Origin: Pseudonocardia parietis
Lineage (GTDB): Bacteria > Actinomycetota > Actinomycetes > Mycobacteriales > Pseudonocardiaceae
Length of the DNA stretch: 64,000 nucleotides
Reading direction: 5' to 3'
NCBI RefSeq assembly: GCF_017876315.1
Contig: NZ_JAGINU010000001.1
Span: 6,696,001 to 6,760,000, forward strand
In this document: positions 7,059-22,213 of the stretch, in pieces
How positions within the stretch are numbered: the first letter of the stretch is position 1
Layout of the letters: each line of letters begins with the position of its first letter
Made by a program: the position numbers and the translations under genes
Notes under the pieces: generated by a model
What the model was told of the DNA's origin: nothing
What the model saw: the letters and a program-made list of their open reading frames with translations, nothing else
Databases searched by the model: none

Positions 7059-7103
7059 GGGTGGAGCTGAGGGGACTCGAACCCCTGACCCCTTGACTGC
7101 CAG
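7059..7103. repeat. attL: displaced 3' half of tRNA-Ala(GGC)
   Basis: Forty-five bases identical to 22169-22213. They comprise the tRNA-Ala sequence from anticodon loop to 3' end plus three flanking bases. Sequence diverges immediately after 7103, so the tRNA here is only a fragment. This marks the left boundary of the integrated element. Confidence 0.93.
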
Positions 7104-7292
7104 CGGTGTGCGAAACGTCCGTGACGTCCGCACAGTCCGCTGACCTGCGGGAGTCTCCGCCTGACGTCCATCTCAGGGCCTCCAAACCCGCCCCGTCCGC
7201 CCGTCCCGTGAGGGATCGGTGAGACGGGACGGCCCCGGAATCGCGGTGATCAGAACACCGGCCGGGGCCTTGATCGGATGGAGGTCCGACCC

Positions 7293-7577
7293 ATGCACGA
7301 CCGTACCCACTCCCCCGCTTGCCCCCCGTGGTGCGCGCAGCCCGCCGGCCACCGCGAGGACGTCGACTGGACCTGCCACTTCGGCCGCATCGCAGTCGAC
7401 GTCCCCGGGCACCGCGTCGAGGTCGCGCTCTCCGTCGCCGACTACGCCGCCCCGGAACCGCTCGTCTTGCTCGACGTCCCCGGCTCCGCCACCGCGGAGA
7501 TCCTGACCCCCGCGCAGGCCCACCTGCTCGCCGCCGCGCTCACCACGGCGGCCGACCGAGCGGAGGGCCACCGATGA
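7293..7577 (+). CDS. Small CPPWC-motif protein, DUF6907-like
   Basis: A 94-residue protein with CPPWC near residue 10 and two later conserved-looking blocks (VDVPGHRVEVALSVADY and LTPAQAHLLAAAL). Small proteins of this kind are frequent in actinomycete conjugative elements; their function is unknown. The ATG at 7293 is chosen because GGAGG lies at 7279-7283, with proper spacing; an ATG at 7278 would overlap that site. It begins the translocase operon and overlaps the next start as ATGA. Confidence 0.75.
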   Translation: MHDRTHSPACPPWCAQPAGHREDVDWTCHFGRIAVDVPGHRVEVALSVADYAAPEPLVLLDVPGSATAEILTPAQAHLLAAALTTAADRAEGHR

Positions 7578-7783
7578 CCCGCCGCGCCCCCGTCCTGTTC
7601 GCCGCCTCGTCGGTGCTGTGCGCCGCCTCGGCCTGGTCGCCGCTGCCCTGGTCCGCGGTCCTGCTCGCCGCCGGCCTGGTCGCGCTGGTGGCCGGCGGGT
7701 GGCTGCTGTACCGGGCCCGCCGGGCCGGTGGCGCCCACCGCGGCACGTTCCCCTACGGCCCGCGGCGGGGTGGTCGGCGATGA
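7574..7783 (+). CDS. Small membrane protein of the element
   Basis: A 69-residue protein with two hydrophobic segments (residues ~5-20 and ~25-48) and a basic C-terminal tail (YRARRAGGAHRG, then PRRGGRR). The start overlaps the preceding stop as ATGA, and its own stop overlaps the next start the same way. Small membrane proteins near TraB in actinomycete elements (Spd-like) help intramycelial spread. That role is inferred from position and topology only. Confidence 0.7.
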   Translation: MTRRAPVLFAASSVLCAASAWSPLPWSAVLLAAGLVALVAGGWLLYRARRAGGAHRGTFPYGPRRGGRR

Positions 7784-8027
7784 CCACCACCGACCTCGTG
7801 CCCTCCGACGTGGAAGGCCCCGACGGGATCACCGCCGGCGATCGGCTCGCCGCCGAGCTCGGCGCCCGCCTCAAGCACCACGGCTACCGCGGCGCGGTGA
7901 CCGATCCCGCCGCCGTCGCCGAGATCCGACGCGCCATGCAGGCGCACCGGGACCGTGAGGCCCGTCGCCCCGCATGGCGGCGCCGCCTCGACCCGGTCCT
8001 AGACGTGCTCGGGGGGGGAACGCATGA
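7780..8027 (+). CDS. Hypothetical element protein interrupted by a G8 homopolymer frameshift
   Basis: About 80 residues of sensible coding sequence (MTTTDLVPSDVEGPDGITAG and on to RRRLDPVLDVLGG). As given, the frame reads through a run of eight G (8011-8018) and continues out of frame over the next gene to 8445, giving only Arg/His-rich sequence. With nine G it would stop at TGA 8025-8027, overlapping the next ATG as ATGA like its neighbours. This is a sequencing indel, slippage variation or programmed frameshift. The protein family is not recognised. Confidence 0.6.
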
Positions 8028-8554
8028 GCCGACTCATCGTCGGCGGCGTCATCCTCGGGATCCTCGTCGCCCACGCCGGCCCCCACACCGCCGGCATCCT
8101 CGGCCTCGGCTGCATCGCCATCACCGTGTGGGCGCTCGCCGGGCGCACCCGCGGCGGACGAGCTGCGTCCGGTCGCGCCGTGATGGGGCACGGCCACGGC
8201 ACCCAACGGCTCATCTCTCGCCACGAGGCCGGGCATGCCGCCGCGGCCCGGGCGCTCGGCGGCCGGGTGCGCTCCATGCGCATGTGGAAGGACGGCGGCA
8301 TGGTGCAGGCGACCTTGCCGACGTCCGACCCGCAGGCCGCCATCACCTTCTGGCGGGCCGGGCGCCATGCCGCCGGGACCGGCACCGGATGCGGCGCCGA
8401 CGACGACCTCGTCCGCCGCGAACTGCGGTCCGTGCCGCGTGCTGACCGGGCGCGGGTCCGCCGCGACGCCGACCGGGACGCCCGCCGCATCGTCCGCCGC
8501 CACGCCAGCGAGATCCGCCGCGACGCGGCCCGCATGCTCAAGGAGAGCGACTGA
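8024..8554 (+). CDS. Membrane-anchored M41-like zinc peptidase without AAA domain
   Basis: A 176-residue protein with two N-terminal hydrophobic segments (residues ~3-18 and ~22-40). HEAGH follows at 67-71, the zinc motif of FtsH-type M41 peptidases. GCGADDDLVRRELRSV (122-137) aligns with the FtsH stretch GASNDLxxAT that supplies the third zinc ligand. The AAA ATPase module is absent and the C-terminus (~140-176) is a charged helix rich in Arg and Asp. It may process or remove membrane proteins during transfer. Catalysis is inferred from motifs; a fold search is needed. Confidence 0.65.
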   Translation: MSRLIVGGVILGILVAHAGPHTAGILGLGCIAITVWALAGRTRGGRAASGRAVMGHGHGTQRLISRHEAGHAAAARALGGRVRSMRMWKDGGMVQATLPTSDPQAAITFWRAGRHAAGTGTGCGADDDLVRRELRSVPRADRARVRRDADRDARRIVRRHASEIRRDAARMLKESD

Positions 8555-9252
8555 TGAGCGCCACCAACACCACCCGGCGGACACCGCTCGTCCTGTGGGC
8601 GACGTGGGCGGGCATGGCGGTCGTGCTGGTCGCCGCCGCCGTCCTGTCGTTCGACGCCCTGCGCGGCCTCGCACTGGCCGTGCGCATCCCCGGCCACTTC
8701 GCGTGGCTACTGCCGATCGCCGTCGACGCCGGCGCGGCCGTGTCGTGCGCCGTGTGGCTCTCGCCGCGGGTCGCTCGGGACGCTGCCCGGTTCGCAGCCG
8801 GCATGACATGGGTCCTGCTCGCCTCGACCGTCGCAGGGAACGCCGGCCAGCTCGCCATGCACGCCCACTCGGTCGTACCGCCGTGGTGGGTGGCGGTGCT
8901 GGTCGGCGCGGTGCCACCGGCGATCGTCGGCGGCACCGTGCACCTCGCCGTCCTCGTCGGCCGAGCACCACAGGAGACAGCCGGCCCGCCCGTCGACGCC
9001 GACCCGATCGTGATCCGTCACCTCGACGAGGTCGACGAGGTCGACCTGCCGCCGGACTGGTGGGTCGATGCGCTCGACGCCGACGAGCAGGAGCAGTTGG
9101 CCGCCGACCCGGCCGCCGACCCGGCGGCCGAGCTCATCGCCGCCGGCGCCGGACGCCGCCGGCTGTCTCGAGAGCTGGGCATCACCGAGCACGCCGCCCG
9201 CGAGCTGCTCGCCACCCGCCGCAACGGCCACCCGCAGGAGGTGCCGGCATGA
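8554..9252 (+). CDS. DUF2637 membrane protein
   Basis: A 232-residue protein with four hydrophobic segments between residues ~10 and 135 (from LVLWATWAGMAVVLVAAAV to PPAIVGGTVHLAVLVG), then an acidic linker and a C-terminal helix-turn-helix-like segment (AAGAGRRRLSRELGITEHAA). The four-helix part matches DUF2637, a family found beside TraB/FtsK genes on actinomycete plasmids and elements. The start overlaps the previous stop as TGATG. It is probably a transfer or spread accessory in the membrane. Confidence 0.8.
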   Translation: MSATNTTRRTPLVLWATWAGMAVVLVAAAVLSFDALRGLALAVRIPGHFAWLLPIAVDAGAAVSCAVWLSPRVARDAARFAAGMTWVLLASTVAGNAGQLAMHAHSVVPPWWVAVLVGAVPPAIVGGTVHLAVLVGRAPQETAGPPVDADPIVIRHLDEVDEVDLPPDWWVDALDADEQEQLAADPAADPAAELIAAGAGRRRLSRELGITEHAARELLATRRNGHPQEVPA

Positions 9253-9527
9253 CCGAGGACGACGTCTACACGCGGGTGAAGCGGGCTCTCGCTGACCGGG
9301 TCGCCCTGCACCCGCCAACCCCCGACGCCGCCCCGGCCGAGACGGCGGCGTGGTGCGAGGCCCACGCCGAGACCTGCGACCGCGAGGCGCAGGCATGGCG
9401 CGACGCCACCGACCACCTGCCGCTGTCCGGCCTATGCCACGAGGCCGTCGTCGTGGCCCGCATGTGCGCTGAGGACTCCGCCCGCGACTGGCGGCGCCTC
9501 GCCCGACCCGATGGGAGCACCCGGTGA
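9249..9527 (+). CDS. Hypothetical element protein upstream of translocase
   Basis: A 92-residue soluble, mainly helical protein with a WCEAHAETCDREA stretch and further cysteines (LCHEAVVVARMCAEDSARDW). No family is recognised. It is joined to both neighbours by stop-start overlaps (ATGA before, GTGA after), so it is co-translated with the DUF2637 protein and the translocase and probably belongs to the transfer module. Confidence 0.7.
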   Translation: MTEDDVYTRVKRALADRVALHPPTPDAAPAETAAWCEAHAETCDREAQAWRDATDHLPLSGLCHEAVVVARMCAEDSARDWRRLARPDGSTR

Positions 9528-11644
9528 CCGACCTCGTGCAGGACTTCTCATCGCCCGCTGTATCCCCCGCTGCTCACCCGGTGGCACCCGCCCCGGGTGA
9601 AGGGGTGGGCGACGAGCGGGTGCCGGTCGACCCGGAGCCGACCCCGACGACGATCTACGCCACCGCGCTCGCCACCCGCGACACCGAGCGCCGCCCGATC
9701 GTCCCCGCGTATCTCCGGAACCGGGACGAGGCCCGCCACCTCGCCGGGTGGCTGGCGAAGTTCGGCGCGCACGTCACCGCCTACCACCTGTCGCGGGCGC
9801 CGCTGTACGCGCTGCGCCTCGCACTGCGGGCACCGCGGGGCCTGGCCGTCGCGGTGGTGGCGGCCGAACGGTGGGTCCTCGACGCCGAGGGCGCCCCGCT
9901 GCGGGCCGGGGCGGTATCGCGCGGCGACGCGAGCGGGTACATGACCCTCGCCCGGGAGCGGAACCGGCGGGTGCACGAGCGCGCCATCATCGCCGGCGCC
10001 TGCGCTGTGCTCGCCGCCGTCGCGGCGGTGGCCGGATGGTGGTGGGCGCCCGGGTGGGTGCTCGCCCTCGCCCTGGTCGTCGCCGTCGCAGTCCTCGGCA
10101 AGGTCGGCACCCCACGCGACCGACGGGTGACCGACGTGGCGACCACCTCGTCGGCGGCCCCGCCCCGGCTCACCGCGGACGTCGTCACCCGCGCCCTCCA
10201 GTCCCTCGGCATCTCGGCGATGGCGGCCAAGGCCGTCCCGCCGTCGTTCGTCGCGCCGATCACCCGGGACGGCCCCGGGTGGCGCGCCGACGTCGACCTC
10301 CCGCACGGCGTCACCGTCTCCGACGTCATGGAACGGCGCGACCGGCTCGCCTCGGGGCTGCGCCGGCCGCTGTCGGCGGTGTGGCCGGAAGCCTCGTCCG
10401 AGCAGCACGCGGGCCGGCTCGTCCTGTGGGTCGGCGACCAGCCGCTCAACAAGGTCCGTCCGGCGGTGTGGCCGCTCGCCAAGGCCGGCGCGGTGCAGGT
10501 CATCGGGGGCCGGTTCCCATTCGGCACCGACCAGCGCCAGCGCCCCGTCAAGGTCGCGCTCGAGGAAACCAACGCACTCATCGGCGCGTTGCCGGGCGGT
10601 GGGAAGACCGCCGCGGTGCGGGTCCTCGCCCTGGCCGCCGCGCTCGACCCGCACTGCGAACTCCGCATCGGTGAGCACAAGGGCAGCGGCGACCTTGAGG
10701 CCCTCGGCCTGGTCGCCCACCGGTACGCCTCCGGTGTCGACGACGAGGCCCTGGCCGCCACGTTGGACAGCCTGCGGGAGCTGCTCGACGAGGTCGGTCG
10801 GCGCGCGAAGACGGTGGCGAAGCTGCCCCGGACAGCGGTCCCGGACCGCAAGGTCACCCCGGAACTCGCCGCCCGCAAGGGCTCCGGGCTGCACCCGATC
10901 GTGCAGGTCATCGACGAGGCGCAGGAGTTATTCACCCACCCCGACCTCGGCAAGGAGGCCGGGGAGGTCGCCGAGCGGATCATCAAGCGCGGCCGGGCAT
11001 TCGGCGTGTACTTGGTGATCGCGACGCAGCGCCCGGACGCCAAGTCCGTGCCCTCCGGGGTGGCTGGCAACGTCGGGCTGCGCTTCTGCCTGCGCGTCAC
11101 CGGGCAGGTCGAGAACGACATGGTGCTCGGCACCTCCGCCTACCGCAACGGGATCCGGGCGACCACGCTCACCCCGTCCGACCGCGGAATCGGCTACCTC
11201 GTCGGCGCCGGCGACGACCCGCAGGTGGTGCGCACCTACTACGTCGACGGCCCGGCCGCCGAGAAGATCGCGCAGCGGGCCCGCGCCGCCCGCGAGGCGG
11301 CCGGGACGCTGACCGGGCACGCGGCCGGCGAGGTAGTCGACGAGGGCCTCACGCCGGCGGCGCAGCTCCTCGAGGACCTGGCCGTCGTGTTCGCCACCGT
11401 CACCGACGAGCGGGTGTGGTCCGAGACCGTGCTGCACCGCCTCGCCGAGCACCGCCCCGCCCTGTACGCGGGGTGGACTCCGGAGGCCCTGGCCGCGGCG
11501 CTCAAGCCGTTCGGGATCACCACCGGGCAGGTGTGGGGCCGCACCGACGAGGGCGCCGGCGCGAACCGGCGCGGCGTCACCCGCGCCGACGTCCTCGCCG
11601 CGATCGAGACGCACCACCGGGCCCGCGCGGAGATCGCCCGCTAG
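9524..11644 (+). CDS. FtsK/SpoIIIE-type DNA translocase, TraB-like conjugation protein
   Basis: A 706-residue membrane ATPase. Two hydrophobic segments lie at ~154-192. Walker A is ALPGGGKTAAVRVL (355-368), Walker B is VQVIDEAQELF (~462-472) and IATQRPDAKSVPSGV follows. A winged-helix-like C-terminus (LKPFGITTGQVWGRT) resembles the gamma domain that recognises short DNA repeats. In actinomycete elements one such protein pumps double-stranded DNA from cell to cell without relaxase. The GTG overlaps the previous stop. The repeat-rich locus just downstream fits a TraB recognition site. Confidence 0.9.
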   Translation: MTDLVQDFSSPAVSPAAHPVAPAPGEGVGDERVPVDPEPTPTTIYATALATRDTERRPIVPAYLRNRDEARHLAGWLAKFGAHVTAYHLSRAPLYALRLALRAPRGLAVAVVAAERWVLDAEGAPLRAGAVSRGDASGYMTLARERNRRVHERAIIAGACAVLAAVAAVAGWWWAPGWVLALALVVAVAVLGKVGTPRDRRVTDVATTSSAAPPRLTADVVTRALQSLGISAMAAKAVPPSFVAPITRDGPGWRADVDLPHGVTVSDVMERRDRLASGLRRPLSAVWPEASSEQHAGRLVLWVGDQPLNKVRPAVWPLAKAGAVQVIGGRFPFGTDQRQRPVKVALEETNALIGALPGGGKTAAVRVLALAAALDPHCELRIGEHKGSGDLEALGLVAHRYASGVDDEALAATLDSLRELLDEVGRRAKTVAKLPRTAVPDRKVTPELAARKGSGLHPIVQVIDEAQELFTHPDLGKEAGEVAERIIKRGRAFGVYLVIATQRPDAKSVPSGVAGNVGLRFCLRVTGQVENDMVLGTSAYRNGIRATTLTPSDRGIGYLVGAGDDPQVVRTYYVDGPAAEKIAQRARAAREAAGTLTGHAAGEVVDEGLTPAAQLLEDLAVVFATVTDERVWSETVLHRLAEHRPALYAGWTPEALAAALKPFGITTGQVWGRTDEGAGANRRGVTRADVLAAIETHHRARAEIAR

Positions 11645-12158: not shown

Positions 12159-12380
12159 TCACCGCGGGGTACAGCCGTTCGGGCAGGACCGCCACTGCGG
12201 CACGTACAGCGGTTCACTCAGGCCCGGGTACCGGTAGATCTCGGGAACGATCGGCCGGCGGCACCGGGGACAGCCGGGCATGACCTGTTCCTCGATCTCC
12301 TCGATCTCCTCCGCTGTGAACGTGGTCCGGCCCTCGGAGTGCACGAGCTGCCAGCTTTCGGGGTCGACGCTCCAACTCAT
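12159..12380 (-). CDS. Small CxxC zinc-ribbon protein
   Basis: A 73-residue minus-strand protein with an acidic helix (TAEEIEEIEEQVM) and cysteines CPRC and CPNGC about 25 residues apart, a probable zinc ribbon. It ends 16 bases from the convergent plus-strand gene. No strong ribosome site is visible, so the start is tentative. Family not recognised. Confidence 0.5.
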   Translation of the reverse strand: MSWSVDPESWQLVHSEGRTTFTAEEIEEIEEQVMPGCPRCRRPIVPEIYRYPGLSEPLYVPQWRSCPNGCTPR

Positions 12381-12556: not shown

Positions 12557-13333
12557 TCAGTCCTGCGGTGCCGGCGCCATCCCCTCGACCCCGGCGTTCG
12601 CGCGGACGTCCTGCACCCGGACCGCGTGGTCCAGCGCCCGGCTACTACCCGGGGAGGTGTAGCGGTCGATCTGCTTGCGCAGCGACCCGACTGCGAGCTC
12701 GGCGCCCTCCGCCCCGGTGGCGAGGTCCCGCTCGACCCGCAGCCGGCCGCGCTCCCCCTTCGGCGCCGTCGCCATGACCGCCTCGTCGAGGTGCCGGTCG
12801 ACGACGGCCGGGTCGCTCACATGACGGCTCTGGCCCGCTGCGGCCGCGTACGCCCCGTACTCCGCCCGCAGGGCGAGGACGGCGTCGTGGTCGCCGGCGG
12901 CCTGCGCCTGCTGCACCAGGGTGAGCGCGTCGACGCCGGCATCGAGCTGTGCCCGCTGCCGGTTCCACGCTTTGGTCTGCCGAGTCTCGGAGAGCAGGGC
13001 GGCGTTCACGTCGACCGGGCCGGACTGGCCGCGGGTCCACTCGGCGATCGCGCGGACCGAGTCGGTGGCGGACTGCTCGAGGCGATCCGCGGCCGCGGTC
13101 GCATCGGCAACGGCCTTCTCGACCTGCTGGTCACGCCAGTCGGTCCCGAGCCGCTCAAGGTCGGCGGTGCGGATCCGGTGCAGCTCGCGGACGAGGCGGT
13201 CGACGACCTGCTCGGCCTCGGCCGGCGCACCCCGCAGGGTGTCGACCGCACCGTCGACGCGGGTGCGGACCCGCTCGGCGGCCCGGTCGGCGGCGATGCT
13301 GTCGAGGACCTGCGACATGAGGTTGCTGGTCAT
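12557..13333 (-). CDS. Long helical coiled-coil protein, last gene of terminase operon
   Basis: A 258-residue, charged, almost entirely helical protein without cysteine or membrane segments. Heptad-like stretches run over residues ~15-110 (DRAAERVRTRVDGAVDTLRG and AVADATAAADRLEQSATDSV). AAGGAG precedes the ATG at 13333, whose ATGA overlaps the previous stop. A position downstream of a terminase suggests a packaging, scaffold-like or capsid-redirecting role, but no homology is recognised and this remains open. Confidence 0.75.
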   Translation of the reverse strand: MTSNLMSQVLDSIAADRAAERVRTRVDGAVDTLRGAPAEAEQVVDRLVRELHRIRTADLERLGTDWRDQQVEKAVADATAAADRLEQSATDSVRAIAEWTRGQSGPVDVNAALLSETRQTKAWNRQRAQLDAGVDALTLVQQAQAAGDHDAVLALRAEYGAYAAAAGQSRHVSDPAVVDRHLDEAVMATAPKGERGRLRVERDLATGAEGAELAVGSLRKQIDRYTSPGSSRALDHAVRVQDVRANAGVEGMAPAPQD

Positions 13334-13542
13334 GAGAAGTTCTCCTTCGGGTTGTCCGACGGCGTCCGGCCGTCGGAGGTCTGGTTGCGGGAAAGCTCAT
13401 CGCGCTCCCCCGCTGCGGTGCCGGGCTCGATGGCCCACACCGCGCCCGTCTCCGCCGTCCACGGCAGATCGGGCAAGTCCTTGAGTCGCGTGCTGCGCAG
13501 GGCACGGGCCCGGAGGCGACCGCGGGGCCGATCACCACCCAT
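13330..13542 (-). CDS. Small hypothetical protein between terminase and coiled-coil gene
   Basis: A 70-residue protein with a basic N-terminus and a polar, disordered-looking C-terminus; the centre reads LKDLPDLPWTAETGAVWA. It overlaps the terminase stop by 11 bases and the next ATG as ATGA, so it is part of the translationally linked chain. No family recognised. Confidence 0.55.
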   Translation of the reverse strand: MGGDRPRGRLRARALRSTRLKDLPDLPWTAETGAVWAIEPGTAAGERDELSRNQTSDGRTPSDNPKENFS

Positions 13543-15010
13543 CGCCGGCCGCCTCCCCCGCCGGCAGATCCATCCACCGCGACGACTGCATCGGCACCGG
13601 CCGTCGCGGCACCGCAGCGCCCCGCCCGGTCGTCACGACGTCCCGGTCCGGCCGCCACGACGGCGCCCCACTCGCACCAAGCGCGTCCCGCAGCCGCCCC
13701 GTCTGCACACACGACATGGCCTGCATGAGCGCCATCGCGAGGTCGTCGTGACCGGCCCGCTCCGGAACCGCGATCCGCACACCACCCGCCGGCAACTGCT
13801 CGAACTCGAGCGCGCGCAACTGCTTGAGCAGCTCCGGGTGGCGAGGCAGCACCAGGCGGTCGCCCTGCAACAGGGTGCGCAGCTTCCCGAACCCGGCCTG
13901 CTTGCGGCGCGCGTCCGTCCACACCGGCGCCACCCGCGTCCGCACCCGCTCGCGGTGCAGCCGGTCCTCGAGGTCCTCGGTCGGGTAGGCGCCGACGCCG
14001 TTGCGCTCGCTCGCGAGGACCCGCATCCCGAACCGGCCTGACACCTCGACGAGGCGGTCGATCCACGACGACCACGGCGCCCGGTGCTGCGCCTCGAGCC
14101 ACGGCACGTACAGCCGCCACCGCATGTCGAGGGCGTCCGCCGGGTCGAGCACCGACAGCGTCACCAACGCGTTCGCGTCCACCGCCTGGCCCCAGTCGAC
14201 GCCGCCGACCATCGGCCACAGCGCCCGGCCGTGCACCGGCACCGTGCCCGGGTCGCGCAGCTCGTAGCCGGCCGCCGCACCCGTCAGCTCGTCCTCGGTG
14301 AAGTAGGCGCCGGCCGCGTCGCCCCACTCCGCGAGGTACTCCCGCGTGAAGTAGTCCGCCGGCTCCCGCTGCCGGATCTCCTCGAGCAGGGCCGCGTCGA
14401 CCAGCGGCGACACCGTCGACGGCCAGTGCCACGCCGCGACCTGCTCGTCGGGCCGGTCCATGCCCCGCCGCCACAGCGACCGGAACCAAGCGTCGGGGCC
14501 GCCCCACGGGCTCGACGTCGCGATGACCCGCGACCCCGGGCGGGCGATGATGGCCGGCTCCGCCGAGCGCCAGATCTCGTCACTGACGAACCCGGCCTCG
14601 TCGACGATGAGCAGGTCCACCGGCCATCCGCGGATCGCCCGCTCGGACGCCGGCACGCTGCGGATCGTCGACCCGTTGCTCAAGGTCAGCGCCGACTTTG
14701 TCTCGTCGAGCACCGACCCGGACAGCGCCGCGGACCCGGTGGCCAGGCCGGCGACGTCGGCGAGGAGGCGCTTGGCCGCGTCCTCGCCGGCCGACACGAT
14801 CAGCACCGTCACGTTGCGCCGGGTGGCGGCCGCGTGCAGGGCCAGCACGGCGAGCAGCACCGACTTGCCGACCTGCCGGCCGGCGCAGACGACGCGGTAG
14901 CGGGCCGGGCTGCGGGCGACCTCGAGCTGGTGCGGCCACAAGGGACGGCCGAGGACACGGGCGGCGAACTGCTCGACGTCGAGCAGCCCGCCCGCGGTCG
15001 GGGCGGTCAC
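13532..15010 (-). CDS. Phage-type terminase large subunit
   Basis: A 492-residue packaging motor. Walker A is AGRQVGKS (43-50), Walker B VDLLIVDEAG (131-140) and the coupling motif ATSSPWG (164-170). The C-terminal half is an RNase H-like nuclease with acidic anchors GGVDWGQ, LASERNGVGA and HDDLAMAL. Full length and intact motifs suggest activity. The GTG at 15010 overlaps the previous stop as GTGA, with GGAGG upstream; the open frame running to 15349 is not the start. In phages it cuts and pumps DNA into capsids. No capsid gene is nearby, so helper-phage packaging is the obvious hypothesis. Confidence 0.9.
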   Translation of the reverse strand: MTAPTAGGLLDVEQFAARVLGRPLWPHQLEVARSPARYRVVCAGRQVGKSVLLAVLALHAAATRRNVTVLIVSAGEDAAKRLLADVAGLATGSAALSGSVLDETKSALTLSNGSTIRSVPASERAIRGWPVDLLIVDEAGFVSDEIWRSAEPAIIARPGSRVIATSSPWGGPDAWFRSLWRRGMDRPDEQVAAWHWPSTVSPLVDAALLEEIRQREPADYFTREYLAEWGDAAGAYFTEDELTGAAAGYELRDPGTVPVHGRALWPMVGGVDWGQAVDANALVTLSVLDPADALDMRWRLYVPWLEAQHRAPWSSWIDRLVEVSGRFGMRVLASERNGVGAYPTEDLEDRLHRERVRTRVAPVWTDARRKQAGFGKLRTLLQGDRLVLPRHPELLKQLRALEFEQLPAGGVRIAVPERAGHDDLAMALMQAMSCVQTGRLRDALGASGAPSWRPDRDVVTTGRGAAVPRRPVPMQSSRWMDLPAGEAAGDGW

Positions 15011-15237
15011 GTCGACACCTCCACTGCACAGCGGGGGCACATGCCCGCCCGGTGGCGTTCGTCGGCGACCTCGAACCCGATCTCCAACAGGTCGACCCGC
15101 AGCGTCTCGACGGCGAGGTCCTCGGTGGCCTGTCGGGATTGCGCGGCCAGGTCCTCGTATCGGGCCGTGAGGGCGTCGTACCGCGCGGCGAGGTCCTGGT
15201 ACTGCGCGACGAGGGCGCCGAGGTCGGGGGCGGTCAC
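15007..15237 (-). CDS. Small coiled-coil protein with C-terminal CPRC
   Basis: A 76-residue protein. Residues ~8-45 are a repetitive coiled coil (QYQDLAARYDALTARYEDLA) and the end carries CPRC. Stop-start overlaps (GTGA) link it to both neighbours. Position just before the large terminase suggests a packaging accessory; no family recognised. Confidence 0.65.
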   Translation of the reverse strand: MTAPDLGALVAQYQDLAARYDALTARYEDLAAQSRQATEDLAVETLRVDLLEIGFEVADERHRAGMCPRCAVEVST

Positions 15238-15536: not shown

Positions 15537-16147
15537 TGGTGATCTCCGGAGGTGTGCGGCCGGGGCGCTGTGTCGCCCGTGGACGGCCGATCGGGGGTGG
15601 GCTGGTGTGTGGGGCCGGGCGCGGCCTGTGCGGCGTCGAGGCGCTCCTGCTCGGCGGTGAGCATCTGGGCGAGGTCGGTACGGGCCGCGGTGACGTCCCG
15701 ACCGAGGCGGGCGCGGGACAGCGGGTCGAGGCCGAGCCGCTGCCGGGCCTTCGCCGCGCGGGCCTCGGCTCGATCGAGCATCGACAGGGCCGACTCGGTC
15801 GCGCGGGTCGAGGTGCGAGATCGGCTGCTCCCCCGGGACTCCTCGGCCTCGGTGGTCGACTCCGTCGTCGAGGCGAGGGCGGCGTCGAGGTCCCGCTCGG
15901 CGAGGTAGGTCCACAACAGTTCGACGACGGCCTCGGCGCGGGCCCATGCCCGCACCGCCGGCGCATAGACGGGCTCGTCGAGGTAGGAGGGCCACGTCGG
16001 CAGGGCGCGGGCTTGCTGCTCGACCTCGGCGGCCAACGGGGCGATGCGGCGCTCGCTGTAGGCGCCGTGCCGGAGGCCGGCCTCGTTACCGTCCCGGAAT
16101 GGCTCCCACGAGTAGCCGCGCGCCACCTCAGCCACGGGCCACGTCAC
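15533..16147 (-). CDS. Candidate terminase small subunit
   Basis: About 204 helical residues. The N-terminal block YSWEPFRDGNEAGLRHGAYS, followed by ERRIAPLAAEV, resembles proteins encoded just before large terminases in actinophages. An acidic and serine-rich linker (~100-125) and a charged helical tail follow. The GTG at 16147 puts that block near the N-terminus; a GTG at 16195 gives 220 residues. It lies three genes before the large terminase in a coupled chain. DNA-recognition function is inferred, not shown. Confidence 0.6.
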   Translation of the reverse strand: MTWPVAEVARGYSWEPFRDGNEAGLRHGAYSERRIAPLAAEVEQQARALPTWPSYLDEPVYAPAVRAWARAEAVVELLWTYLAERDLDAALASTTESTTEAEESRGSSRSRTSTRATESALSMLDRAEARAAKARQRLGLDPLSRARLGRDVTAARTDLAQMLTAEQERLDAAQAAPGPTHQPTPDRPSTGDTAPRPHTSGDHQ

Positions 16148-16319
16148 TTGACAGGTCCACAAGTGACAACTCGCTGACCTGCTTGGATGCGGCACCGATC
16201 ACGTCGAAATCACGCGTCTCAGCCGTCCGCAGAGCGGCCCCGACGCCCGCGCGTGTGCATCGTGTCTGCGGTTCCGCGGGGGCGTGCGACCCCGCCGGAC
16301 CGCGCTCGGTGGCGTTCAC
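16128..16319 (-). CDS. Small hypothetical protein in the replication/terminase chain
   Basis: A 63-residue frame starting at a GTG that overlaps the preceding stop as GTGA and ending about 20 bases inside the next gene. The C-terminal half (DFDVIGAASKQVSELSLVDL) looks helical. Support is only the overlap pattern of this operon; no homology seen. Confidence 0.45.
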   Translation of the reverse strand: MNATERGPAGSHAPAEPQTRCTRAGVGAALRTAETRDFDVIGAASKQVSELSLVDLSSDVARG

Positions 16320-16876
16320 GCGGCGGCCTCGAGCTCGGCGTCGGCGGACGGGCGGCAGTCGGTGCAGGCGCCCCACGAGAAGGCGAGGGGTCCGTAGGTC
16401 ACCGCCCCCGGCACGATGCCGTCGTGGTCGGTGCCGGCGGTGATGCGGCCGCACCGGTCGCAGGTGCGGTCGGCGTCGCTACCGGGGCGGAGCAGGTGGA
16501 GGCCGGCGCAGGTCATGCAGGTGACGAGGTCCGGTCGCCACGCGGTGCTGTAGACGAGCTGCGGCCGGCGCGGGTTCGGATCGTGCAGGCACGTGTCGGC
16601 GTAGCCGAGGGTCCAGCGGACGAACGTGGTGAGCAGCGGCAGTCGGATCCATGCCGGGATGGCACCGGGGCGGGCGGTGGACCGGGTGCCGCCGAGGGCG
16701 GGGGCGAGCCGGTCGAGGAACGCCTCGGCGTCGCGGGCGGCGGCGTCGGCCTGGTCGTCGTGCGCGGTGCGGGTTCGGTGGGCCTCGGCGAGGGCGGCGG
16801 CGAGGAGGTCGTCGTCGGCGAGCAGCTCGTCGAGGGCGAGGACGGTGCGCCCGATGTGGGCGTCGGTGGTGGTCAT
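16316..16876 (-). CDS. Zinc-ribbon protein of unknown function
   Basis: A 186-residue protein with a helical N-terminal half (residues 1-75). The C-terminal half has paired cysteines CMTC, CDRCGR and CTDC that could form one or two zinc ribbons. The ATG overlaps the previous stop as ATGA and has CCTCCC-adjacent GAGG upstream. It follows the replication protein, so a DNA-associated function is plausible. Family not recognised. Confidence 0.7.
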   Translation of the reverse strand: MTTTDAHIGRTVLALDELLADDDLLAAALAEAHRTRTAHDDQADAAARDAEAFLDRLAPALGGTRSTARPGAIPAWIRLPLLTTFVRWTLGYADTCLHDPNPRRPQLVYSTAWRPDLVTCMTCAGLHLLRPGSDADRTCDRCGRITAGTDHDGIVPGAVTYGPLAFSWGACTDCRPSADAELEAAA

Positions 16877-17214
16877 GGGAGGTCACCTCGGCGGTGGGTG
16901 GGGAGCGTCTGGGGAGCGACGGCCGGGGTGCTGGGTGGATCGCGGCCGGGGTTGTTCCTCGCCGGTTCTGAGCCCTCGTTTTGCCCATGGACCACTGCGC
17001 GGACGACCGGGCGGACAAGGGGACGACTCCATAGTCGTCGTCCCCCACTTGTCCCCCCACCTGTAAATGATCTTGTCCACACTTGTCCCGACTCGTCCGT
17101 GCAGGTCAGAGACTTGTCCGCGACTCGTCCGCACTTGTCCACCGACTCGTCCCGGGAGTCGTCCGGCGGGGGCGGCGGACAAGCCGATGGACGAGTGCCC
17201 GTAGCCGGTCTCAT
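16873..17214 (-). CDS. Low-complexity frame containing the iteron array
   Basis: A 113-residue frame whose ATG overlaps the stop of the replication gene as ATGA and whose TGA overlaps the next ATG the same way. Two such junctions are unlikely by chance. The product is Pro/Ser/Arg-rich with the repeated theme DESVDK, ADKSLT and DESGQVW, dictated by the DNA repeats it contains. It may be translated only to couple the operon across a replication origin. Function unknown. Confidence 0.5.
   Translation of the reverse strand: MRPATGTRPSACPPPPPDDSRDESVDKCGRVADKSLTCTDESGQVWTRSFTGGGTSGGRRLWSRPLVRPVVRAVVHGQNEGSEPARNNPGRDPPSTPAVAPQTLPTHRRGDLP
17013..17196. repeat. ACTTGTCC/ACTCGTCC iteron array, candidate replication origin
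   Basis: Eight copies of A/TCTTGTCC or ACTCGTCC lie at 17047, 17071, 17081, 17091, 17112, 17123, 17133 and 17145, with a variant at 17157. Inverted copies (GGACAAG or GGACGA) flank the array at 17013, 17021, 17177 and 17189. Several neighbours are 10-12 bp apart, about one helical turn. It lies directly after the prim-pol replication gene. Rep-binding iterons are the likely meaning; a regulatory role is also possible. Confidence 0.7.
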
Positions 17215-19367
17215 GCCGCCCCGTGGAGGTGCTGATCGGACAGGGCGAACCGGCCCTTGCTGACGTTGGCGATCACCTGGGCGTCGTCGCGCAGCATCCG
17301 CAGGCCGCGGTCGACGCTGCTGTCGCTGTAGTCGCGGCCGGGGGCGGCGTTGACGGCGCGGATCAGGGCACCGCGGGTGCTGCCCTCCTCGCGGTCGCCG
17401 ATGAATGCGAGGACGCGGTACACGTCGCGGGCGGCGTCACTGCCGCGGCCGGTGAGCCGCGCGACCTGCTCCGGAACGCTGTCCGTGGCGAGGTCGGTCC
17501 ACCAGTCCCCGCCGCGGTCGCCGAGCAGCGCCTCTGCCCCGGCCACGGCGCCGATGATGGCGACGGCGGCCGGCACTCCGTCCTCGTCGACGATCTCGGG
17601 GACGCGGGCGAGGCGGATGGGCCAGGTCTCGCCGTCGGGTGCGTCCTTGAACTTGGCGACGCGCAATGTGCGCTGCTGGTCGGCGTCGCGGTTCCCGTTC
17701 GGGAGGTCGATCATCAGGACGTAGTCGGCGTTGGCGCGTTTGGCGCCGGCGCCGCCGAGGTCGGCGAGGCCTTGGGCGGACTTGTTCGTGTGGTCGATCA
17801 ACAGGGAACCGATGCCGTGCTCGTCGCGGACCTCGATGAGGCGGCGCATGACGATCCCGACGGCGGTGTTGTCGTTCTCCTCGACACCGACGGTGGTCTG
17901 CCGCCAGGTGTCGACGACGATGAACCCGATGCGGTTGGCGAGGGCGAATCGGATCATGCGTTCGGTGTCGGCGGGCGAGCCGAGGTCGAACGCCCGCGGG
18001 TAGAGCGCGACGCCGCGGGTGGCGGTGATGTCGAGCCGGCGACGCACGGCGCGCAGGCGCAGGCCGACCCCGCTCGACCCCTCGGCGGCTACGTACAGCA
18101 CCTTGAGCTGCTCGCGGGGAGTGAGGCCTGCCCCTTCGAGCGCGGGGACGCCGTAGGCGATGCTGGCAGTGATCCCGACGCCGACGAAGCTCTTGTAGGA
18201 CCCGGAGGGTCCGCCGAGCCATCCGACGGCGCAGGCCGGAATCAGGCGGGTGACGAGCATGCGGGGCGGCGGCAGGGTTTCGAGCGCGTCGTCCCACACG
18301 ACGACGTCCTCGACAGCCGGGGCGTTGGCGAGCCGTTCGGCGTCGAGCTGCTGACGGGCCTGTTCCTTGATGCGCAGTCGTTCGGTCTCGAGGTCGACCT
18401 GAATCTGTCGGGCCCGCTCGCGAACCCCCGCGGTGGGGTCCTCGGCTGGTGGTGTGGTCTCGTCGGAGATGCCTGGTGTTCCGGGGCGCCACTCTTGCGC
18501 GACGGCCCATCCGACGATGGATTCGAACTCGTTCTCGGCCTGGGGGCGAGTGATGGCGCGTCCGTCGCGGCCGGTCTCGGTCAGTGCGGCGACGAACTCG
18601 TCGGCGAGGCGGCGGAGCCCGGTGCGGGCAGGGAAGCGGCCCTCCATGGCCTCACGGACGACCCAGCATGCGGCGCCGGTGGCGGCGACGTGACGGGAGG
18701 CGCCGGCGTCGACCTCGGCGTTGAATCCGGCGATGATGGCGTCGAGGCTCTTGGCGCTGAGGTTGAGCTTGTGTTCGGCGACGAACCGCTCGATCTCAGC
18801 GTCGCCGACGGCGGACGCGGTGTCTCCTACGTCGGGGAGCAGGTCGGACACGTTGCGGGGCAGCTCGGGGACTTCCTCGGTCTGCCGCCACACGCGGCCG
18901 GGGCCGCCGACGAGGATGATGCCGTTGTCGCCGCGCCACTCGCCCCACTCCCGCCCGGTCTCCCCGGCGCGGTTGCCGATGCGACGACCGGGGGGCTGCG
19001 CGAACAGGTAGTGACCACGGCGGGGCTGCTCTTCGCGGGTCGACTGAAACGGCGGTTTGAGGGCGGCGACGGCTGTGGCCAGCTCGGGGGTGACCTTGTC
19101 GGGGTCATCGACGTCGGCAACGATGAGCCCGGACCGGCCGCAGTGGATGGCGACGCGGTGGTCGGTGTTGGCGAACCAGTCCCGGATCTGCTCGGGGTCG
19201 CGGCTGGACTTCGCCGGCCACCCCGTACCGAGCACCGACCCGGCGTGCTTGGCATCGCCGGTGTTGCGAGTGGGCAGGACGTAGAACCCTGCCTCGGCGA
19301 GGGCGCGGGCGATGGTGAAGCTGTCGGCGTCCTCGTCGATGAGCGGGACGAACAGGGGCTTGTTCAC
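17211..19367 (-). CDS. Replication protein: prim-pol domain fused to RepA-like helicase
   Basis: A 718-residue protein. The N-terminal bifunctional primase/polymerase domain has the metal motif LIVADVDDPD (81-90). The central RecA-like ATPase has Walker A GGPSGSYKSFVGVG (~383-396) and a Walker B-like IGFIVVDTW (~480). A winged-helix-like region follows (RGALIRAVNAAPGRDYSDSS). This architecture is the Rep of many actinomycete integrative elements and plasmids, where it starts replication of the excised circle. The GTG at 19367 overlaps the previous stop; the frame open to 19508 is not used. Confidence 0.85.
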   Translation of the reverse strand: MNKPLFVPLIDEDADSFTIARALAEAGFYVLPTRNTGDAKHAGSVLGTGWPAKSSRDPEQIRDWFANTDHRVAIHCGRSGLIVADVDDPDKVTPELATAVAALKPPFQSTREEQPRRGHYLFAQPPGRRIGNRAGETGREWGEWRGDNGIILVGGPGRVWRQTEEVPELPRNVSDLLPDVGDTASAVGDAEIERFVAEHKLNLSAKSLDAIIAGFNAEVDAGASRHVAATGAACWVVREAMEGRFPARTGLRRLADEFVAALTETGRDGRAITRPQAENEFESIVGWAVAQEWRPGTPGISDETTPPAEDPTAGVRERARQIQVDLETERLRIKEQARQQLDAERLANAPAVEDVVVWDDALETLPPPRMLVTRLIPACAVGWLGGPSGSYKSFVGVGITASIAYGVPALEGAGLTPREQLKVLYVAAEGSSGVGLRLRAVRRRLDITATRGVALYPRAFDLGSPADTERMIRFALANRIGFIVVDTWRQTTVGVEENDNTAVGIVMRRLIEVRDEHGIGSLLIDHTNKSAQGLADLGGAGAKRANADYVLMIDLPNGNRDADQQRTLRVAKFKDAPDGETWPIRLARVPEIVDEDGVPAAVAIIGAVAGAEALLGDRGGDWWTDLATDSVPEQVARLTGRGSDAARDVYRVLAFIGDREEGSTRGALIRAVNAAPGRDYSDSSVDRGLRMLRDDAQVIANVSKGRFALSDQHLHGAA

Positions 19368-19555
19368 GGCGCGGCCTGCTCGCTGCCGGTGTCGGCGGTG
19401 GTGAGCCGGTGCAAGGCTGCGGCGGCGTCGCGGAGGCTCGGGCCGTGCCCGGGGCAGGTGCACCCGGAGTTGGGCTCGTCGGTGACGGGGCGCCCGCAGA
19501 CCCGCCATGTGTTGATCGGCCTGGCGGGGCCGGTGGTGTCGCGGGGGGCGTTCAC
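19364..19555 (-). CDS. Small cysteine-containing protein, first gene of replication operon
   Basis: A 63-residue protein with one central cysteine group (VCGRPVTDEPNSGCTCPGHG) and a C-terminal helix. GGAG precedes the GTG at 19555, and the stop overlaps the Rep start. It may be a small zinc-binding regulator; family not recognised. Confidence 0.65.
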   Translation of the reverse strand: MNAPRDTTGPARPINTWRVCGRPVTDEPNSGCTCPGHGPSLRDAAAALHRLTTADTGSEQAAP

Positions 19556-19620: not shown

Positions 19621-19628
19621 TTCGCATG

Positions 19629-19856
19629 TCATGGGGTCTCGAGCGACGCGACGATCGAGGCGGTGACGACGCGCAGCCGACCGCCCGCCTTGATCACCCG
19701 GGCGGGGAACTGCCCCGCGGCGACGAGCTCGTATCCGTGCGACGGACTGAAGCCGTAGGCGCCCAGTGAGGCGCGGGGGACGCTGACGGTTGCGCCCCAG
19801 TTCTTGATCTCGTCGAGGGTGGCCGTGTCCTCTTCCCGTCGAGCCGGTGCGCTCAT
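19629..19856 (-). CDS. Excisionase-like helix-turn-helix protein
   Basis: A 75-residue DNA-binding protein of the MerR/AlpA-like fold typical of Xis: VSVPRASLGAYGFSPSHGYE followed by FPARVIKAGGRLRVVTASIV. In actinomycete elements Xis directs the integrase to excise. The ATG at 19856 gives the usual Xis size; in-frame ATGs at 19868 and 19874 are possible. It is divergent from the XRE regulator and shares its operator region. Confidence 0.75.
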   Translation of the reverse strand: MSAPARREEDTATLDEIKNWGATVSVPRASLGAYGFSPSHGYELVAAGQFPARVIKAGGRLRVVTASIVASLETP

Positions 19857-19966
19857 ATCGCCGTCCATCCTCATCAAATCGACATGCTCAGTACGCAGAA
19901 TGATGCGCACCACGGACTGTACGGGTCGTGTGGACGGTACGCAAACCGGCGAGGTACCGTGTCGAT
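19857..19966. promoter_or_regulatory. Divergent control region between xis-like and XRE regulator genes
   Basis: CGGTAC (19935-19940) and GTACCG (19954-19959) form an inverted repeat. More GTACG-like words occur upstream (AGTACGCAG and TGTACGGG). This arrangement suggests operators for the neighbouring XRE repressor controlling excisionase and integrase, the switch between resident and mobile states. Binding is inferred. Confidence 0.5.
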
Positions 19967-20614
19967 ATGATTGATTCGGACGACGTCACGGCCGCCTGGC
20001 CGTTGAGCGAGATCACCGCCGCGCAGATCAACCGGCTCCGCCGCCGCGCCGGCATGAGCAGGGACCAACTCGCCGCCCGATGCCGCGACCTGGGCGCACC
20101 CGAACAGATGACCGCTGCGGCTATCGCGAACATCGAGACCGGCCGCAGGAATCCGACGACCGGGCGCCGGCGCCGCGACGTCACCATCGACGAGCTCGGC
20201 ATATTCGCCGCGGCGCTCGGCGTGCCGCCGGTGCTGCTCGCCATCCCCGTCGGCCTGCGGGAGCTTGTCGAGATCCTGCCCGGGCGGGTCGTGTCGGCGT
20301 GGGACGCGGCGCAGTGGTTCACCGGTGAGGAACCCTTGCCCACCCACAACGATGCGGGCGAGCGGTTCGTGACCTCGGACGCGTTCCGGGCATGGGAGAC
20401 GGGCGGGGCGCCCCTCGACTTCTACCGCCGACAGGACGAGCTGCTCGACGACTGGCGCAGTGCAGACGCGGCCGCACGGCCCGACCTCGAGCAGCGGCTC
20501 GCCGAGCTGCGCCGGTCGATGCGCCGGGCCGGCGTCCGTACCGGCGCCCTGCCCGGGCAGCTCACTGCCAATCTGGCCCATGTGGACAGCGACGAGGAGA
20601 GCGGCAATGGCTGA
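19967..20614 (+). CDS. XRE family transcriptional regulator of the element
   Basis: A 215-residue protein. The helix-turn-helix spans residues ~15-75 (INRLRRRAGMSRDQLAARC, later AAIANIETGRRNPT and VTIDELGIFAAALGVPP). A helical C-terminal region of unknown ligand follows. The ATG at 19967 has GAGGT upstream. It overlaps the integrase start by 8 bases. The likely repressor of excision and replication functions. Confidence 0.8.
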   Translation: MIDSDDVTAAWPLSEITAAQINRLRRRAGMSRDQLAARCRDLGAPEQMTAAAIANIETGRRNPTTGRRRRDVTIDELGIFAAALGVPPVLLAIPVGLRELVEILPGRVVSAWDAAQWFTGEEPLPTHNDAGERFVTSDAFRAWETGGAPLDFYRRQDELLDDWRSADAAARPDLEQRLAELRRSMRRAGVRTGALPGQLTANLAHVDSDEESGNG

Positions 20615-21770
20615 TCGCAGGGTCCGACGGATCACCGTCGGCGACCGCACCCGGTACCGGTTCGTGGTTGACGTCGGGCGCGACCCGGCCACCGGCAAGC
20701 GCAAGCAGATCACTCGCACTTTCGACAGGCAGGGCGACGCCGACAAGGACTTGACCCGCATCCTCGCCGAGGTCAACCGGGGCACCTACGCGCACCGGTC
20801 GAAACTCACCGTCGACGAGTACCTCGGCGAATGGCTGCGATCCGCCAGCCGTGGGAAGGAGGCGGCGACCATCCGGAACTACGCCGACGCCCTCCGGCCC
20901 GCGCGGGAACGGCTCGGCGCGGTCGAGCTGCAGAAGCTCACCACGCGGCACGTAGAGGACCTGGTCGACTGGATGTCGACGGAGGGCCGGCGTCGGGGTG
21001 GGAAGCCTGGCACCGGGCTCGGGCCCCGGTCGGTGCAGCTCACCCTGTCTCGGCTGCGGTCGGCGCTCGACGCGGCGGTGATGCACCGCATGCTCGACTT
21101 CAACGTCGCCGCCCCGGTGAAGCCGCCGGCGGCGACCAAGGTGAAGCGGGTGCCGTGGTCCGCGGCCGAGGTGCGGCACTTCCTCGGTTCCCTTGATGGG
21201 AAGCGACTGCACGCCGTCCTGCTGCTGTCCCTGTTGGGGCTGCGTCCGGCGGAGGTGTGCGGGCTGCGGTGGTCCGACGTGGACCTCGACGCGGGCACGT
21301 TGGACGTGGCGAACACCCGCACGTTGGTCGCGGGCGACCGGGGCCAGGTGGTGGTCGAGAAGGGTCCGAAGTCGAGCGCGGGAGAGCGGTCACTGCCGCT
21401 GCCGGCGTCGGTGACGGCGGCCCTGCGGCGACTGAAGACGTTGCAGACCGAGGAGCGCCTCGCGGCCGGAGGGGAGGCGTACACCATGACCGGGTACGTG
21501 CTCGTCGACGAGCTGGGCGCACCGCAGCGCACCGACTGGTTGCGGCGCCGGGCGTACGAAGCGATGGCGGAGGCGGGAGTGCGGAAGGTCCGGCTGTACG
21601 ACGCCCGGCACGCCTGCCTGACCTACCTCGCGACGAACGGAGTGCCGGACGTGATCGTGTCGGCGTGGGCCGGCCACTCGGACCTGTCGCTAGCGAAGCG
21701 GGTGTACGTGCACCCGTCGGCGAAGGACCTTGAACAGGGGCGCGACAAGCTCACTGAACTGCTCGGATGA
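20607..21770 (+). CDS. Tyrosine recombinase / site-specific integrase
   Basis: A 387-residue integrase that recombines the element into tRNA-Ala(GGC). There is an N-terminal arm-binding domain, a SAM-like core-binding domain (~60-160) and a catalytic domain. Catalytic residues are Arg in LLGLRPAEVCGLRW, the box II motif YDARHACLTYLA, GHSD and the nucleophile Tyr in RVYVHPS. Box II has Tyr where the first His of HxxR is common, a substitution worth noting. GAGGAG precedes the ATG. It ends about 400 bases from the intact tRNA, as expected for an attP-linked integrase. Confidence 0.92.
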   Translation: MADRRVRRITVGDRTRYRFVVDVGRDPATGKRKQITRTFDRQGDADKDLTRILAEVNRGTYAHRSKLTVDEYLGEWLRSASRGKEAATIRNYADALRPARERLGAVELQKLTTRHVEDLVDWMSTEGRRRGGKPGTGLGPRSVQLTLSRLRSALDAAVMHRMLDFNVAAPVKPPAATKVKRVPWSAAEVRHFLGSLDGKRLHAVLLLSLLGLRPAEVCGLRWSDVDLDAGTLDVANTRTLVAGDRGQVVVEKGPKSSAGERSLPLPASVTAALRRLKTLQTEERLAAGGEAYTMTGYVLVDELGAPQRTDWLRRRAYEAMAEAGVRKVRLYDARHACLTYLATNGVPDVIVSAWAGHSDLSLAKRVYVHPSAKDLEQGRDKLTELLG

Positions 21771-21825
21771 CGGCAGCATGCCTCCGGGCTTGTCTTCGCG
21801 CATTGCTTCCGGTACGTTTCTCAGC

Positions 21826-22068
21826 ATGGCAACCAGCACGGAGAAGGTTCGCGAGAACCGGCTCAGACGGGCCGCTGAGCGGCAGGGGCGACTGCTCGTC
21901 AAGTCACGACGCCGGGACGAGCGAGCCCTCGACTTCGGACTGTTCGTCCTCGTCGACGACACGGCCGGCAACCGGACCGGGCAGCACGGTGGACAGGCCG
22001 CAGTCTCGGCGTTCGCGGACGGTGAGGGCATGACCCTCGACGAGGTCGAGCAAGCGCTGCTCGGCTGA
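21826..22068 (+). CDS. Small conserved-looking protein next to integrase
   Basis: An 80-residue basic-then-acidic protein (start MATSTEKVRENRLRRAAERQ, then LLVKSRRRDERALDFGLFVL). Proteins of this pattern are common near integrases in actinomycetes; their role is unknown. No ribosome site precedes the ATG, while a TACGTT box lies about 8 bases upstream, suggesting a leaderless transcript. It is the last gene inside the element. Confidence 0.7.
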   Translation: MATSTEKVRENRLRRAAERQGRLLVKSRRRDERALDFGLFVLVDDTAGNRTGQHGGQAAVSAFADGEGMTLDEVEQALLG

Positions 22069-22119
22069 CCACGACAACTACATGTGAGATTTCGTGAGAG
22101 CACCGGCCCCGGAAATGCA

Positions 22120-22157
22120 GTCAGGGCCTCTCTCACCGAAGTGATCAAGGCCCTGAC
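22120..22157 (-). terminator. Element-borne terminator for tRNA-Ala
   Basis: A 10-bp perfect stem, GTCAGGGCCT with its complement, and an 18-base loop. It lies 15 bases beyond the 3' end of tRNA-Ala on the minus strand. The element supplies it as a replacement for the displaced one at 7023-7050. Confidence 0.65.
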
Positions 22158-22168
22158 CTGGCGCTATT

Positions 22169-22213
22169 GGGTGGAGCTGAGGGGACTCGAACCCCTGACC
22201 CCTTGACTGCCAG
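22169..22213. repeat. attR: right 45-bp repeat inside intact tRNA-Ala
   Basis: Identical to 7059-7103. The element-provided 3' half of tRNA-Ala completes a functional gene, the usual outcome of integrase-mediated insertion at a tRNA 3' end. Confidence 0.93.

Follow-up and report, generated by a model that had tools for sequence, protein, structure and literature searches.

Pseudonocardia parietis carries, integrated at a tRNA-Ala gene, a 15.1-kb element that joins the gene set of an actinomycete integrative and conjugative element (AICE) to a phage-type packaging motor made up of small (TerS) and large (TerL) terminase subunits. The element occupies positions 7059 to 22213 of the window, the 64,000-nucleotide stretch of contig NZ_JAGINU010000001.1 (positions 6,696,001 to 6,760,000) that was analysed. 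The best single reading, to which we give a probability of roughly 0.55, is a chimera of an AICE and a phage satellite that would move by TraB-type conjugation and would also package itself, with its own terminase, into the capsid of a helper phage. An earlier sequence-only reading of the window is partly supported: it had the anatomy right, most of the checks that it suggested turned out in its favour, and this anatomy and its recurrence in a second genome are observed; the two-way movement that it proposed, by conjugation and by packaging with a helper, is what we infer from them.

The element is bounded, as first proposed, by a repeat derived from tRNA-Ala. An exact 45-bp match, which extends to 54 nt at 93%, occurs at 7059-7103 and again at 22169-22213, 15,110 bp apart from start to start, and the right copy of this attachment (att) repeat is the 3' part of a complete tRNA-Ala(ggc) gene on the minus strand (22170-22244). 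From the tRNA inward follow an integrase, an XRE regulator, an Xis-like helix-turn-helix (HTH) protein, a Prim-Pol/AAA replication protein (Rep), an iteron array, a 186-aa protein, TerS, a 97-aa protein, TerL, a 70-aa open reading frame (ORF) and a 258-aa protein. The genes from the Xis-like one onward run leftward, and converging on them are FtsK, DUF2637, a weak M50-like protein and DUF6907 (Table 1). AICEs are defined by their Int, Rep and FtsK genes (PMC3218068), and in the account given there they share with the element a tyrosine integrase, a tRNA site, a Prim-Pol replication gene and an FtsK/SpoIIIE transfer gene. All of these were found: the integrase with att repeats at a tRNA gene, a replication gene of Prim-Pol type (PF09250, 5e-17) and an FtsK that scores 29.6 bits against the PF01580 cut-off of 24. 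The integrase, XRE, Rep and FtsK/TraB-like assignments of the sequence-only reading hold, and its Xis-like call is supported weakly (HTH_17, 0.088). FtsK has two hydrophobic peaks at about residues 150-198, and the plasmid TraB model NF041214 matches it at 1.3e-7, far under its cut-off; regular expressions found no strict Walker A motif in it, for which ALPGGGKT is a by-eye reading. Of 200 genomes of the bacterial family, 144 contain homologs of this FtsK, which also occur in 66 plasmid records and, over one fifth of the length, in two phage records; the module is an ordinary AICE gene set of the family. What sets the element apart from AICEs is the added, complete TerS-TerL pair. The word "terminase" is absent from the main text of two AICE papers (PMC3218068 and PMC9513070).

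The large subunit is intact, as had been claimed. TerL matches PF03237 over its cut-off (7e-10) and the RNaseH-like family PF17289 just under it (2e-4), and a TerL profile run against solved structures finds T4 gp17 and other phage TerL chains. Its Walker A motif (AGRQVGKS), Walker B motif (LIVDE) and acidic nuclease residues D274, E337 and D424/D425 are all kept. Residues G46, R47, G50, K51, D139, E140, D274, E337, D424 and D425 (P0001 numbering) are invariant in 12 aligned rows, of which L011 and L024 are nearly the same sequence, and the active site shows no decay. The case for the small subunit is mixed, with a conserved place before TerL in relatives and a weakly matching fold on one side and weak individual matches on the other. 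Ten candidate rows beside related TerLs align at 36-46% identity; the 12-row alignment includes one wrong ORF (L016:11861-12397, 21% identity) beside the right one, and 4 of its rows match Terminase_4 (best E 4e-5). The best structural match of the predicted fold is HK97 TerS, at a Z of 6.9 over 91 residues and 3.8 Å, a value that lies where helical matches can arise by chance. Foldseek also placed HK97 TerS first, not significantly (E 0.73), and BFVD yielded no useful match. Since the library scores are weak and the fold score is in the chance range, the TerS call rests mainly on gene order and on weak P27 matches. Taken together, the alignments indicate that the element carries a conserved TerS-TerL pair of the phage kind, which may serve to redirect helper particles.

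Genes for a phage particle were not detected, again as first read. Among 20 element ORFs scanned against Pfam and PHROGs (10 of them also against NCBIfam), no portal, capsid, protease, tail or lysis family matched beyond chance level. Nor did six-frame ORFs of at least 50 aa match profiles built from the portal, capsid, MuF and major tail proteins of phages that share the terminase. This profile test has a limit, in that it missed a capsid of another family in the relative L012, which was noticed by eye and then found via PHROGs; "no capsid", when said of the relatives, therefore means no match to these profiles and no family match among the genes scanned, a subset of all genes. Among the ORFs picked as coding by third-position GC, all four longer than 260 aa are assigned, and the largest unassigned one is 258 aa. 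The element resembles PICI-like satellites in lacking complete virion genes of its own. A prophage remnant, which would hold structural or lysis genes, intact or decayed, is rejected because no structural gene was found and because the gene order recurs in G818, another genome of the genus.

That recurrence confirms the observation and makes it stronger than first noted. The sequence-only reading had suggested searching other actinomycete genomes for the same gene order next to tRNA-Ala, and it is found in G818 at tRNA-Arg instead. On contig C39 of this genome, tRNA-Arg is accompanied by an integrase and a primase/helicase, by a TerS match and by TerL, and the contig ends within a gene of the protein family fam 21, after the first 63 of the 230 profile positions. 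Contig C57 picks up near fam 21 position 100, and there follow an ORF of 89 aa, a tape measure protein of 697 aa, FtsK in convergent orientation, DUF2637 and a tRNA-Arg end copy. The element would measure about 14.5 kb (8,276 + 6,100 + a gap of about 110 bp set by the fam 21 profile). A third tRNA-Arg end copy on C44, 171 bp before the contig end, and an integrase-like gene just outside the att copy on C57 make a tandem insertion likely here. The two TerLs are 75% identical over 487 residues, with a ratio of nonsynonymous to synonymous polymorphism (pN/pS) of 0.46, and are sisters in the TerL tree (support 100/99); the DUF2637 proteins are 64% identical (pN/pS 0.50). A TerL search of 297 family genomes returned 13 that pass E 1e-8, among which P. 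parietis and G818 exceed 700 bits and both have FtsK; the other 11 score 41-80 bits over the ATPase part of TerL only.

If the element is such a chimera, it would excise and replicate when a helper siphophage grows in the cell. Its own TerS would pick element DNA, and its own TerL would dock on the helper portal and fill helper-made capsids; with no portal or capsid in the element, the motor could act only on the procapsid of another phage. When no helper is present, double-stranded DNA would move between hyphae via the FtsK/TraB pump, as in AICEs.

Support for such a lifestyle comes from a wider set of loci. Eight of 397 genomes of the order, P. parietis among them, have a TerL relative; others come from Arthrobacter Hiyo8, Rhodococcus KRD162, the circular pDJL3 (15,865 bp, Rhodococcus qingshengii) and 27 IMG/VR loci, while phage records give 63 TerL matches, the best of them 32% identical (Thermus phages). 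The loci fall into two kinds, phages with a portal and short elements. Of the 27 IMG/VR loci, 16 have a portal family downstream of TerL, with contigs that reach 118 kb, and the phage-kind representatives that were scanned show portal (phrog_533), MuF, scaffold, capsid (phrog_267), neck/minor head, major tail protein and tail chaperone genes. The same TerS-TerL thus occurs next to portal and capsid genes in metagenomic siphophages; in the TerL tree, L037 is identical to the phage row L038. None of 21 short-element loci matches the phage portal, MuF, capsid or major tail profiles, against two of two phage controls that match all four. TerS is found in 16 of the 21 by a profile that includes some of these sequences. 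Repeats of 26-56 nt, from tRNA ends or similar, bound 7 of 24 loci tested, at 8.6, 12.4, 15.0, 15.1 (the window element), 15.1, 15.4 and 16.8 kb, and no convincing repeats were found in the 45, 45 and 30 kb examined for G288 (L016), G113 (L021) and G320 (L019). The sizes near 15 kb in most bounded relatives, which differ in gene content, suggest a small capsid of about one third that of a 45-kb phage, with members of 8.6 and 12.4 kb existing beside them.

The short elements (pDJL3, Arthrobacter Hiyo8, L016-L022, L027, L041, L044, L045 and L048) have TerS-TerL of the same family, mostly with an integrase, and several resemble the window element in their tRNA-end repeats and sizes near 15 kb. 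They differ in that tape measure, tail chaperone, neck or tail-fibre genes are present in several of them and in that FtsK is absent from those tested. Tape measure proteins are encoded in L013, L016, L020 and L021, weakly in L022, partially in L011 and clearly in L099, and a local profile adds L041 and L044. A tail chaperone is found in L013, a neck/minor head protein in L011 and a tail-fibre-like protein in L017. L011 and L024 encode a protein of 77 aa that shares a C-terminal motif with the scaffold of the phages (E 8e-4); by analogy with the CpmB of Staphylococcus aureus pathogenicity islands (SaPIs), it suggests control of capsid size. The window and G818 elements are thus members of a rare and broader group of short TerS-TerL elements in actinobacteria. 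Tentatively, and at somewhat less than even odds, they may represent a stable class of two-route elements with an AICE pump and a complete packaging motor. This class would be one branch of an undescribed family of actinobacterial satellites whose members supply TerS-TerL, and often a tape measure protein, themselves and rely on the helper for portal, capsid and tail tube.

Some members of this set are of interest in their own right. One Rhodococcus element (L013, which is pDJL3, together with L044 and L045) spans 14-15.9 kb and encodes TerS, TerL, a tail chaperone and a 1,439-aa tape measure protein, with no portal or capsid match in the profile test; it is circular in pDJL3, which is annotated as a non-mobilizable plasmid. 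In L014 (11311-13043), L023 (9893-11340), L087 and L088, TerL seems to be encoded by two genes, one for the ATPase and another for the nuclease; L014 is a 16.3-kb Streptomyces virginiae plasmid that also has Prim-Pol, integrase and DUF2637 genes. Packaging and conjugation genes stand side by side again in L015, a 16.7-kb archaeal plasmid of Halomarina sp. BND7 with an annotated terminase large subunit, minor head protein, relaxase and type IV secretion DNA-binding protein.

Several findings weigh against the chimera. The TerS library matches are weak (Terminase_4 0.0057, phrog_83 0.0028, P27 family 0.0015), and in the two libraries with curated cut-offs they fall below them. In a test of 11 genomes or records with this terminase, FtsK was found in one, P. 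parietis itself, and not in the other ten; G818, found after that test, is the second terminase genome with FtsK. The G818 case lies on two contigs, with weak fam 21 matches at the break (E 3.7e-4 and 0.008), and it includes a tape measure gene that the window element lacks. Between the two elements FtsK and integrase are each 50% identical with little sign of constraint (pN/pS 0.79 and 0.82, values for which synonymous sites may be saturated). Neither a tape measure gene nor a recognised capsid-control gene was found in the window element, and a class-wide sample returned the terminase from P. parietis only (1 of 394). One short relative has a capsid: L012 (4572-13196) lies at tRNA-Val in Rhodococcus sp. 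KRD162, is 8.6 kb long, encodes a scaffold-like protein, a capsid of another family, TerS and TerL and does not match the portal profile; the fragment L046 has a capsid of that kind as well. A search for the phrog_533 portal found none in P. parietis or G818 and weak matches in 2 of 60 genus genomes, and the packaging genes of the prophage resident in P. parietis are of another type.

That prophage is siphovirus-like and lies near C1:6250-6287 kb (L124, L125). It has an HK97-type terminase (TerL phrog_9, 6e-38), a portal and capsid detected by tblastn and a tape measure read by eye, and is a possible helper.

The main rival is an AICE whose captured TerS-TerL does not package the element, being a passenger or hindering an infecting phage (e.g., by portal competition), so that movement is by conjugation only. 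The ordinary FtsK module, the weak TerS, the missing tape measure gene and the lack of a phage with a matching portal in either the P. parietis or the sister genome would all suit this account. We nevertheless consider it unlikely, as TerS and TerL have been kept together, with their conserved residues, across distant hosts. In addition, the relatives that lack FtsK look mobile too, being short and having tRNA-end repeats, which leaves the terminase as their only visible transfer function apart from the integrase.

The insertion extends beyond the window. A third att copy (44 nt, 98%) lies at G000:C1:6695292-6695335 (G000 being the P. parietis genome), 709 bases left of the first base of the window and 7,768 bp left of the repeat at 7059, so the insertion amounts to 22.9 kb in two att-bounded parts arranged in tandem. 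The site is empty in G925 and G1001, of the same genus, where both flanks join at one tRNA-Ala. The flank left of G000:6695335 aligns at 84% over 422 columns in G925 and 86% over 243 in G1001, and the flank from window 22169 at 83% and 86%, respectively; G827 has the same empty site with a short left part. The join falls at the third copy (G000:6695292) and not at the 7059 repeat. The 7.8-kb segment so delimited (G000:C1:6695292-6703059, i.e., window 1-7058 plus 709 bases leftward) appears to be a catabolic cluster in which an IclR regulator, Zn-alcohol dehydrogenase, Rieske oxygenase, reductase and major facilitator superfamily (MFS) transporter were read by eye, and no integrase was seen in that reading. 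It resembles a cis-mobilisable element (CIME) in tandem with the 15.1-kb element. It would be cargo that a two-route element could take along.

Tandem accretion at tRNA-Ala, demonstrated by this third copy, also lends something to the idea of a chance fusion, in which the element arose when an AICE recombined at the tRNA with a satellite or prophage in decay, and its phage half is now being lost. The tape measure gene present in G818 and missing here would agree with such loss, as would the two base compositions of the element (GC about 0.74-0.76 across 7-17 kb and 0.69-0.72 across 17-22 kb of the window). We regard this as distinctly improbable, since the main genes are open and conserved, the same order stands at another tRNA in another species, no third att copy was found between the AICE and phage halves of the 15.1-kb element, and the shift in GC does not coincide with the border of those halves. 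No DNA-level match to the element was found among plasmid or phage records.

FtsK-type pumps also act in chromosome segregation, and FtsK and DUF2637 are the sole transfer genes of the element, with no transfer site identified. It is therefore conceivable, at long odds, that the element is a satellite whose FtsK serves the packaged route or inheritance (e.g., moving DNA at septa or spores) and not conjugation. This sits poorly with the homologs on many actinobacterial plasmids and with DUF2637 standing beside FtsK, Prim-Pol and integrase, a combination that makes up the AICE set (for Int, Rep and FtsK, see PMC3218068).

To our knowledge, satellites take the terminase of their helper, bring TerS or bring a whole capsid module. 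In gene content the element is an AICE and also has the gene-content side of a satellite; by the features tested, it is not a capsid-forming phage-inducible chromosomal island (cf-PICI), a MiniFlayer-type satellite or a prophage remnant. With PICIs and SaPIs (compare PMC10690885), it shares a size of about 15 kb, an integrase, its own replication and packaging gene(s) without a virion of its own; it differs by TerL beside TerS, by the FtsK transfer module and by the lack of a recognised capsid-control gene. The cf-PICIs in that account have their own TerS and TerL too, together with capsid, protease, portal and connector genes that the element lacks. MiniFlayer (17.4 kb) and MulchRoom, satellites of Streptomyces phages, share an actinobacterial host and their own TerS-TerL, and in addition possess a structural module of portal, capsid, scaffold and adapter, which is missing here; FtsK gets no mention for them in the available text of PMC10690885. 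Searching by title and abstract start, in a literature from which most subscription papers and all preprints fell outside, we found no description of an AICE with a terminase or of a satellite with its own tape measure.

Among the remaining features, the 258-aa protein is predicted to be helical at low confidence. By eye it seemed homologous to similarly placed proteins of L020 and L013, a relationship that was not supported (hhalign probability 1%, MAFFT identities 18-25%). The start of the integrase is probably downstream of 20460, since the frame overlaps the XRE gene. The iteron array is probably a replication origin, and possibly a packaging (pac) site. The degenerate word ACTYGTCC, picked after the array had been seen, matches 15 times in the window against 5.5 expected, with 7 matches inside the 106-bp array. 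Exact 8-mer clustering in the element is not beyond chance (1 of 60 shuffles as high). In L086, L011, L017 and L027 no shuffle of 60 is as high, and arrays of other short words directly follow a rep-like gene.

Table 1. Features of the element in window coordinates, with the evidence for each assignment.
Feature	Position	Strand	Evidence
Left att copy (3' part of tRNA-Ala)	7059..7103		exact 45-bp repeat of 22169-22213
DUF6907 protein	7278..7577	+	PF21848 3.7e-7, over cut-off
Membrane protein, weak M50-like match	8024..8554	+	PF13398 9.7e-4, under cut-off
DUF2637 membrane protein, putative transfer-gene partner	8554..9252	+	PF10935 2.2e-9; 64% identical in G818
FtsK/SpoIIIE translocase, TraB-like	9524..11644	+	PF01580 5.7e-7; phrog_1358 1.9e-26
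Small protein, CxxC motifs read by eye	12159..12380	-	no family over cut-off
258-aa helical, coiled-coil-like protein; putative capsid-control candidate	12557..13333	-	no family; AF2 pLDDT 61
70-aa ORF overlapping TerL end	13330..13542	-	no family; similarly placed 71-aa ORF in G818
Terminase large subunit, 492 aa from chosen GTG start; open frame to 15349	13532..15010	-	phrog_2 1.6e-41
97-aa protein, coiled-coil-like	15007..15300	-	no convincing family
Terminase small subunit (candidate), P27/HK97-like, N-terminus unsure	15533..16195	-	P27 family 0.0015; TerS rows beside related TerLs
186-aa protein	16316..16876	-	no family match (Pfam, PHROGs, NCBIfam)
Iteron array, 7 direct ACTYGTCC copies	17047..17152	+	inverted copy at 17189
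Prim-Pol + AAA helicase, Rep; true start may be internal	17211..19508	-	PF09250 5e-17; PF13481 (AAA_25) 7e-26
Xis-like HTH protein	19629..19913	-	HTH_17 0.088; phrog_32619 1.7e-4 (unknown function)
XRE-type regulator	19928..20614	+	HTH_31 2e-7
Tyrosine integrase	20460..21770	+	PF00589 2.1e-14; phrog_1 5.7e-58
Right att copy, inside complete tRNA-Ala 22170-22244 (-)	22169..22213		exact 45-bp repeat

If the chimera reading is true, elements with a full TerS-TerL pair, sometimes a tape measure, and no portal would mean that the motor alone can be a hijacking device. A single element would then combine a short-range route, by mating, with a long-range route, in particles. It would also become possible to test, in culturable actinomycetes, whether conjugative elements turn into satellites or satellites into conjugative elements.

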